Of a DNA stretch of 64,000 nt, positions 4,011 through 33,295 are shown in pieces. Each line of letters begins with the position of its first letter. The first letter of the stretch is position 1. Origin of the DNA: a candidate division FCPU426 bacterium. GTDB lineage: Bacteria; Oederibacteriota; Muellerivitia; Muellerivitales; Muellerivitaceae. The notes under the pieces were generated by a model. That model did no database searches and was not told the DNA's origin. It saw only the letters and a program-made list of their open reading frames with translations. The translations under genes and the position numbers were made by a program. Location of the stretch: the NCBI GenBank assembly GCA_027452205.1, contig DAIDGV010000024.1:280750-344749 (forward strand), in the 5' to 3' direction.

Positions 4011-5174
4011 TTAATATTTCGGTACGGAAGGATCGACCTGATCGCTCCAGCCCAAGATCCCGCCGGCCATATTGACCAAATGATCGAACCCTTGTTGCTT
4101 CAAGAAAGCGATGGCCTTTTGGCTTCGCATGCCGCTCTTGCAATGGACCACGATCTCTTTGCCCTTGTACTTGTCCAGTTCATGGAACTGGTTGGGCAAT
4201 TGGGACAGAGGCACGAGAACGGAACCCGGGATACGGGCCATATCGTACTCATTCTGTTCGCGCACATCGACCAGGACAAAATCTTGCTTCTCGTCCATCT
4301 TCACCTTCAAGCCCAGCGCGTCGATCTCATCCTTTTTCATGGCCGTTTCCTTGGTCTGGGTATCTTCCACCTTCATGCCGCAGAACTGTTCATAGTCGAT
4401 CAGCTCCTTGATGGTGGGGTTCTTGCCGCACAAGGGACAGCTGGGGTCCTTGCGCAGTTTCAAATTGCGGAACTGCATATCCAACGAGTTGTAGATGACG
4501 AACTTGCCGATGGCCGGGGTCCCGGCCCCGGTGATGAGCTTGATGGCTTCGGTCGCTTGGATGGCGCCAATAGTGCCGACCATTGCCCCCATAACGCCGC
4601 CTTCCGCGCAGGAAGGAACTTCGCCCGGAGGAGGCGGTTCGGGATACAAGCAGCGGTAGCAAGGCCCTTCGGGGGTCTTGAACACGGTCACTTGGCCGTC
4701 AAAACGGAAGATGGAACCATAGATGTTCGGCTTGCCTTGCAGGGCCGCTGCGTCATTGGTCAAATAACGGGTCGGAAAATTGTCCGTCCCATCGATGATC
4801 ATGTCGTAGTTCTTGAGGATATCCATGATGTTGTCGCTCTTCAGGGCGACTTGGTAGGTATTCACCGTCACATCCGGGTTCAAGGCCTTTAACCGCTTGG
4901 CGGCCACTTCCACCTTGGGCTTCCCGACGTCCTCGGTCGTGAAAAGGATCTGGCGCTGCAGGTTGCTGGCGTCCACGGTGTCGAAATCGACCAGACCGAT
5001 GGTGCCCACGCCCGCCGCGGCCAAATAGAGGGAAATGGGACAGCCCAACCCACCCGCGCCGACCACCAACACCTTGGCGGCGAGAAGTTTCTTTTGACCT
5101 TCCACGCCGATCTCCGGCAAAAGAATATGCCGGGTATAGCGCTTGATCTGTTCTTGGTTGAGATTCATGCCCAT
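4011..5174 (-). CDS. moeB: MoeB/ThiF-type adenylyltransferase with C-terminal rhodanese domain
   Basis: RYTRHILLPEIGVEGQKKLLAAKVLVVGAGGLGCP, DGTDNFPTRYL, CxxC pairs, C-terminal VDVREQNEYDMARIPGS and HCKSGMRS. Confidence 0.92.
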   Translation of the reverse strand: MGMNLNQEQIKRYTRHILLPEIGVEGQKKLLAAKVLVVGAGGLGCPISLYLAAAGVGTIGLVDFDTVDASNLQRQILFTTEDVGKPKVEVAAKRLKALNPDVTVNTYQVALKSDNIMDILKNYDMIIDGTDNFPTRYLTNDAAALQGKPNIYGSIFRFDGQVTVFKTPEGPCYRCLYPEPPPPGEVPSCAEGGVMGAMVGTIGAIQATEAIKLITGAGTPAIGKFVIYNSLDMQFRNLKLRKDPSCPLCGKNPTIKELIDYEQFCGMKVEDTQTKETAMKKDEIDALGLKVKMDEKQDFVLVDVREQNEYDMARIPGSVLVPLSQLPNQFHELDKYKGKEIVVHCKSGMRSQKAIAFLKQQGFDHLVNMAGGILGWSDQVDPSVPKY

Positions 5175-32620: not shown

Positions 32621-32777
32621 GATCTCACCCCTCGATGGAGAGGTGATGAGGACATTTTCTATCCCTTCGTCAATAACACTCTCCGATCCTTTTCATCCAA
32701 CAAAAAGCGTGCATCTTTGTTTCCACGTGGTAAAATATTTTCAGTTAGGTTTCTCTCACTTTTGAAGGAGGTTAACC

Positions 32778-32834
32778 TTGGCCACTAAGAAAAAGGCTGT
32801 GAAGAAGAAGGCTGCTAAGAAAAAGAAAAAGTAA
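32778..32834 (+). CDS. Unannotated 18-aa lysine-rich mini-protein MATKKKAVKKKAAKKKKK
   Basis: AAGGAGG SD 8 nt upstream of TTG; reads TTG GCC ACT AAG AAA AAG GCT GTG AAG AAG AAG GCT GCT AAG AAA AAG AAA AAG TAA; terminator follows. Confidence 0.68.
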   Translation: MATKKKAVKKKAAKKKKK

Positions 32835-32853
32835 GTAGCCTCAAAGCAAATGT

Positions 32854-33295
32854 TCAAAAAGCCTGGGACTCGTTCCTGGGCTTTTCTTTTTTACGGTCTT
32901 TTACGGGGATTACCAGCTTAAGCCCCGACCAAGTCTCATCCACCGCGCAAATTTTGACGTCCACCATCCCGCTTTCAAGAGCGAATCTCCGGACGTGATC
33001 CTCGGTCAGGTCGGTCACTACTTTCGAGGACTTCTTGGGCCAAGAGGCCCAGATCATTCCCTTAACCGCTAAATTTTTCCGGGCTTGGAGGAGAGCTTTG
33101 TCATAGGTCTTTCGATCGATGCAAAAAAAGGTGAACAAAGTCCAAGGACCCTTTTAGGGAAGGAACCACCCGCACTCCCTCCGGTAAGGGACTTAGTAAC
33201 CAAAAGTAACCACTGGGCGGGTTCAGAATGTAAACCTTAAACCCTGTTTGAAAGCCAAGTTTTTTGACCAAGGGTGTTCCGCTATAACCCGCCAT
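32854..33295 (-). pseudogene. DUF3052-like protein split by frameshift in a T7 run
   Basis: MAGYSGTPLVKKLGFQTGFKVYILNPPSGYFWLL...LDFVHLF in one frame; CIDRKTYDKALLQARKNLAVKGMIWASWPKKSSKVVTDLTEDHVRRFALESGMVDVKICAVDETWSGLKLV in the other; joins if the run is T6. Confidence 0.75.
32857..32892 (+). terminator. Rho-independent terminator after the lysine-rich mini-ORF
   Basis: AAAAGCCTGGGA-CTCGT-TCCTGGGCTTTT (12 bp with two G-T wobbles) plus T tract. Confidence 0.85.

Follow-up and report, generated by a model that had tools for sequence, protein, structure and literature searches.

Does a short stretch of DNA lying between a PAS-like gene and a converging DUF3052 gene encode an 18-residue lysine-rich peptide and, if so, what might such a peptide do? 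The stretch is part of the window, by which we mean the whole 64,000-nucleotide piece of DNA that was analysed. A sequence-only reading had proposed that an unannotated mini-gene with its own Shine-Dalgarno (SD) sequence and terminator is present here. This proposal is strongly supported, both by direct reading of the cassette and by the conservation of the cassette in relatives. The parts of the cassette are:

32728..32736, + strand: extended -10 promoter element TGG-TAAAAT (TGGTAAAAT), from the sequence and family comparison
32765..32771, + strand: SD sequence AAGGAGG, with a 6-nt spacer TTAACC to the start codon; GGAGG is present in all family copies
32778..32834, + strand: mini-ORF, TTG start at 32778-32780, encoding MATKKKAVKKKAAKKKKK, then TAA; variation in relatives is dominated by third positions
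32857..32891, + strand: intrinsic terminator with a 12-bp stem, 5-nt loop and T tract, from the sequence and folding

The mini-gene in the window and its phylum

Read directly, MATKKKAVKKKAAKKKKK is specified by 18 codons ending at 32831 and followed by TAA at 32832-32834. The peptide contains 11 lysines, one fewer than originally counted, together with 4 alanines and no acidic or aromatic residues. The spacer between SD and TTG is 6 nt long rather than the 8 nt first given, while the 12-bp hairpin with T tract is as described, with 12 pairs at 32857-32885 and a T tail running to 32891. The hairpin has a folding energy of -15.8 kcal/mol (z -4.2 relative to shuffles). The TGGTAAAAT element lies 30 nt from GGAGG, and a simple scan for promoters gave no sigma-70 site that includes a -35 element. 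The window genome holds a single copy. The complete architecture had been taken to make a chance origin less likely. However, an SD with a start codon is not in itself rare, since AAGGAGG-N6-DTG occurs twice in the 64-kb window against 0.54 expected, and 11 of 100 shuffles reach two occurrences. By themselves the SD and start codon are weak evidence for the mini-gene, and it is conservation that makes the case.

The neighboring genes are those originally named, an upstream PAS-like gene and, directly downstream, a DUF3052 ORF that converges on the mini-gene, with weak Pfam scores. The DUF3052 gene (minus strand) is split into ORFs at 33307-33101 and 33138-32854 that overlap at 33101-33138, near an A-run, which suggests a frameshift and either a pseudogene or an assembly error. 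The final codons of this gene overrun the terminator of the mini-gene. In G007, another genome of the family, the same-strand upstream gene is akin by eye to the PAS-like gene (FSMDFVFL, FNY-DPIL and LDSLPxGAIAVST are found in both); a related-locus search of other genomes' contigs found no relatives of the PAS-like gene.

Our comparison set contained one genome per species and, for the window's own copy, other genera only. The mini-gene cassette is present in six of the eight family genomes, which represent five genera including the window's own. There are seven family copies: that of the window, two in G001 (~11 kb apart) and one each in G002, G003, G006 and G007. The G006 copy was first found by a DNA search of the family and those of G001, G002, G003 and G007 by pattern searches. 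The cassette consists of an extended -10 element, an SD, ATG or TTG followed by GCN, 14-18 codons, a stop and usually a terminator, and the peptides of the other copies are MAKKKKAAKKKATKKKKR, MAKKKAKKTAKKKKR, MAKKAVKKPAKKKKRK, MAKKAKKAAKKKKKR, MAKKVKKAAKKKKR and MAKKAKKAAKKKKR. All seven copies have the extended -10 upstream, in the form TGnTA[CG]GAT in six and TGGTAAAAT in the window, and the six are separated from GGAGG by 17-23 nt as against 30 nt in the window. GGAGG is found in every copy and a terminator in most. In G006 and the second G001 copy (L014) the hairpin is visible by eye, is mismatched and fails the rule of our terminator script. Loss of the frame or of the SD in relatives had been named as grounds for abandoning the gene, and both are kept in six of the eight family genomes. 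Among the three closest copies (G003, G006 and G007) there are 0, 1 and 7 variable sites at codon positions one, two and three, stop codon included.

The patterns used found no mini-gene in G004 or G005 (genus g4; G005 is 98% complete), and the mini-gene is therefore not essential throughout the family. MAPKKK ORFs in these two genomes were rejected as mini-genes, being the starts of ~155-aa proteins. The proteins in question (L194, L195) have a Lys/Ala-rich N-terminus (MAPKKKKTAKKSA...) and are DksA/TraR-like by eye, and MAPK starts occur in other family genomes too. In several family copies, alignment A1 contains conserved blocks upstream of the -10, GCAAC-n-AAATTC and AAGATATAAAAATTT, that are possibly an operator or UP element.

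Irrespective of these relatives, the window frame could be a functionless accident of its own genome, given that its peptide is TTG-started and differs in detail from those of the relatives, all of which belong to other genera. Against this, the window shares with them the cassette, the extended -10, the SD context GAAGGAGGT and the terminator, and a same-strand PAS-like gene lies upstream in both the window and G007. Chance is a highly improbable explanation.

Across the phylum, a strict pattern (SD, start and AAKKK codons) matched 6 of 45 genomes, and a reversed control pattern none. A very loose pattern (SD, start and KKxx-stop) matched all 45 with many control matches, and was discarded as swamped by chance. 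Three further families of the phylum (G018 and G041-G044) have versions of 11-13 aa, and a strong hairpin and a T run come after each one. The G018 peptide, MATKKKAKKKKKK, has a TTG start; those of G041 and G042 are MACKKKAKKKKK and MACKKKVKKKKK, and those of G043 and G044 are MATKKKKAKKKK and MAKKKKAKKKK. In G023, also of this phylum, the same cassette holds a 44-aa Lys/Ala/Val repeat ORF of KKKVA type (MAVKKAAKKKVAKKK...; L005, 1512-1646), a possible bridge towards proteins resembling histone H1. The 44-aa protein has no Pfam match at E 0.1 and no relative among solved structures, and a protein search with it returned its own genome as the sole match. A second, weaker relative of this repeat protein lies elsewhere in the G023 genome (L036).

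Coding signature in the Nitrospiraceae

A 501-nt region around one Nitrospiraceae copy matches 115 of the 119 genomes of that family. We read 30 of these loci, and all 30 encode MATKKA(A)AKKKKK, always from TTG. The peptide is MATKKAAKKKKK in 25 loci and MATKKAAAKKKKK in 5, a length difference of one whole Ala codon, and an SD-like GGGGGTGAG or GGAGGTGAG stands at a fixed distance from the TTG. The 501-nt query included the mini-gene, so its ranking favors loci that have kept it; each locus is independently tied to the others by the adjacent HARE-HTH gene, the stop codon of which lies 32-52 nt upstream of the mini-gene in 30 of 30 cases (L197-L226). The HARE-HTH gene and the mini-gene are probably a two-gene unit. 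In the loci checked, the mini-gene converges with lpxC.

Third-position changes in relatives had been put forward as a check on the frame, and the result bears the frame out in the Nitrospiraceae as in the closest family copies. The 25 twelve-residue copies comprise 12 distinct DNA sequences with 0, 0 and 7 variable sites at codon positions one, two and three. A random single change in this ORF is synonymous in 19% of cases (36% for transitions). The variation takes the form of AAG/AAA swaps without AAY and of four-fold changes in ACN and GCN. Sequence identity is 93% in the ORF and 93% in the SD, compared with 45% in the 36 nt upstream and 59% in the 50 nt downstream, the flank values being underestimates because they were computed ungapped. 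Counts of variable sites are circular when made among copies grouped by identical peptide; such counts were not used and were replaced by the loci from the region query. On this comparison, the Nitrospiraceae pattern is a protein-coding signature.

These data bear on whether the interval instead specifies a small RNA that is not translated and whose purine-rich AAG/AAA tract is accidental. The mini-gene has its own promoter and terminator, as an RNA gene would, and in the predicted fold of the window the Lys-codon tract can pair with the U-run of the terminator, a pairing that we set aside as a by-product of purine and pyrimidine tracts. A non-coding tract is hard to square with variation confined to third positions, AAG/AAA exchange without AAY, four-fold ACN and GCN changes and a whole-codon indel in the Nitrospiraceae. 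Nor does it sit well with an SD and start that are kept while the flanks drift, and no Rfam family matches above its gathering score within the window. We regard this explanation as very doubtful. Because variation falls at third positions, length changes by a whole codon and the TTG is invariant, the window interval is, as judged from these comparisons, a real, translated gene under purifying selection rather than a product of chance.

Mini-genes in other phyla and in archaeal bins

We scanned 85,462 named genomes for an SD, a start, four Lys codons and a stop, a search that places a lower bound on the breadth of the group. Among the matches listed, translation separated at least ~40 apparent mini-genes from ordinary gene starts; many matches in low-GC genomes were of the latter kind and were rejected. 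The record labels among the matches listed include Rokubacteria, Acidobacteria/Terriglobia/Sulfotelmatobacter, Nitrospira, Nitrospirae, Deltaproteobacteria and Betaproteobacteria and, for archaea, soil Euryarchaeota and DPANN archaea, although these phylum labels come from metagenome bins and may be wrong, and contigs may be misbinned. One record, L089 ('Proteobacteria bacterium Centralia_MAG_561'), is identical to G003 across the gene and its surroundings and so belongs to the window's family. Versions outside the phylum (Nitrospirota, Acidobacteriota, Rokubacteria, Deltaproteobacteria and archaeal bins) are 11-16 aa long.

In 14 named genomes with mini-genes, all 15 pattern matches are mini-genes, compared with 1 control match. 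The pattern is present in 45 of the 201 genomes of one acidobacterial family, with control matches in 7 genomes; 28 of the 45, or ~14% of the family, carry Lys-rich mini-ORFs as read among the matches listed. Terminators follow 29 of 53 mini-genes, against 2.5 expected from shuffles.

Several of these copies have further features in common. At least six soil archaeal bins with the Euryarchaeota label (L045, L080, L086, L114, L139, L146) encode an identical VAKKKKGKKKKR from a GTG start and share a conserved T-rich block downstream. In the acidobacterial copies L050, L058, L063, L071, L072, L107, L116 and L154 the SD is preceded by a conserved 5' leader (about TTTGCAAGGGAAAATCGTTCAC) and the stop is followed by a hairpin whose GAAGCACCTC region is similar. 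On the Rokubacteria contig L044 an SD-preceded MKKKAKKKKK (4513-4564, minus strand) stands in tandem after the mini-gene MAKKKATKKKKK. On the betaproteobacterial contig L088 (2498-2559, minus strand) a Lys/Ala-rich reading continues in another frame past the stop of the mini-gene, as if this had been cut from a longer H1-like gene.

The constant trait of the mini-peptides is clusters of Lys spaced by Ala, Gly, Thr or Val, with the length (11-18 residues) and last residue (K, R, H or Q) being lineage-specific. Acidobacterial peptides end in H, most of those in the window's family in R and those of Nitrospira in K, a distribution compatible with either common ancestry or convergence across phyla. 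Convergence between phyla is possible since the neighboring genes differ and short, simple Lys/Ala sequences can arise repeatedly. Nitrospira copies adjoin HARE-HTH and lpxC, acidobacterial copies hydantoinase, MerR, LemA and other genes, those of archaeal bins ketopantoate reductase and endonuclease V, and the G041 copy FtsK and phosphomannomutase.

The neighbors are also relevant to attenuation. Attenuator leader peptides of the his/trp leader type are encoded by short ORFs rich in one residue and followed by a terminator hairpin. The mini-gene resembles them in both respects, and could be a lysine-sensing leader in which ribosomes stall at the Lys codons and the hairpin attenuates a downstream gene; a same-strand MerR-family gene does lie downstream in some Acidobacteria (L072, L090, L111, L116). 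However, the window, G007 and the Nitrospira loci checked all have a convergent next gene. In the window an attenuator would have no target, because the downstream DUF3052 ORF converges, and this arrangement rules out attenuation there. The downstream genes differ between phyla, with no conserved regulated gene, and residues other than Lys are also selected, Ala and Thr being conserved with synonymous change only. Attenuation is thus a most unpromising account of the group as a whole.

Possible targets of the peptide

The product would be an 18-residue disordered polycation. An enzyme or a membrane peptide is an unlikely identity for a chain of Lys with Ala or Thr, and DNA, RNA or another polyanion is a reasonable binding partner. 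The peptide probably acts in trans, as there is no conserved neighbor across lineages and the gene is its own transcription unit, and its composition suggests that it would bind nucleic acid electrostatically, neutralizing backbone charge. The most likely target would be the nucleoid, coated by a free 'histone-H1 tail without a body', and the main alternative a pocket in ribosomal RNA. We are evenly divided on this proposal as a whole, that is, a complete monocistronic micro-gene whose product is a free polycation acting in trans on nucleic acid, most likely on the nucleoid.

Resemblance to H1-like and AlgP tails had been noted at the outset. It holds for composition and goes no further, and a ribosomal ligand of the bS22/eL41 type fits about equally well. 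H1-like proteins such as chlamydial Hc2 and the AlgP KPAA domain are, like the mini-peptide, Lys/Ala-rich, disordered and very basic. Their long repetitive Lys-rich tail is lacking in the mini-peptides (18 aa in the window, 11-18 aa in nearly all relatives), which are likewise without a domain or long tandem repeats, G023 alone having repeats. Hc2 is 165-237 aa long (PMC2848022), while AlgP carries a KPAA-rich, H1-like tail of 195 aa on a 124-aa domain (PMC9239181). AlgP sits at polyphosphate granules and determines their spacing (PMC9239181), a precedent for the mini-peptide being a ligand of such granules or of some other polyanion. Nevertheless, AlgP function requires the long tail on a helical domain, and no polyphosphate gene adjoins the mini-genes examined, so we think this role improbable.

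A ribosomal micro-protein occupying an rRNA pocket, either stoichiometrically or at times of stress, is an unlikely reading too, albeit one with substance. The precedent is Borrelia bS22, an unannotated protein of 61% Lys/Arg with a GUG start that was discovered by cryo-EM alone and was the sole ribosomal protein that mass spectrometry did not identify (PMC10618245). Like bS22, eL41 and mS38, the mini-peptides are tiny, extremely basic and liable to be missed through very short length and a rare start codon. A house-keeping role would suit their near-invariant sequence, their strong SD and the conservation of non-ATG start codons, TTG in Nitrospiraceae and GTG in soil archaea. The sequence likeness claimed here is one of charge only. 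bS22 has about 30 residues (gene 93 nt) and eL41 24 in a single helix (PMC10618245), and proteins of this type, which sit in the 16S h2/h27/h44/h45 pocket, are 24 to about 30 aa long, helical and described as Lys/Arg-rich, whereas the mini-peptides have 11-18 residues that are nearly all Lys/Ala. In length the mini-peptide falls outside both the H1-like and the bS22 families. A patchy distribution in Acidobacteria and absence from G004 and G005 would be unusual for a ribosomal protein, and in the Nitrospiraceae the mini-gene adjoins a HARE-HTH gene rather than one for translation. HARE-HTH is a DNA-binding domain, and its adjacency favors a DNA-related role in that family. Together with the H1/AlgP-tail composition and the G023 bridge form, this link leads us to place the nucleoid slightly ahead of the ribosome as the probable target.

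We found no description of such Lys/Ala strings or of such a family in the open-access library searched, and the role of the group appears to be undescribed. The GMSC small-ORF catalogue spans 9-99 aa (PMC11364881), so raw entries for the mini-genes may exist there. We tentatively suggest, with rather more doubt than confidence, that micro-genes of 11-18 codons are widespread in several bacterial phyla and archaeal bins, have been systematically missed by annotation and encode free polylysine peptides that hardly vary and form a conserved part of the nucleoid or ribosome. If this is right, most Nitrospiraceae and several other phyla contain a gene of ~40-60 nt that has been overlooked. Common gene callers apply a length limit that a gene of this size falls below, and a nearly all-Lys peptide is almost invisible to trypsin proteomics. 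The mini-peptides would then serve as a minimal model, supplied by nature, for polycations of the H1-tail or bS22 type, and they raise the question of what a 12-residue polylysine peptide does that selection should keep it letter-perfect.
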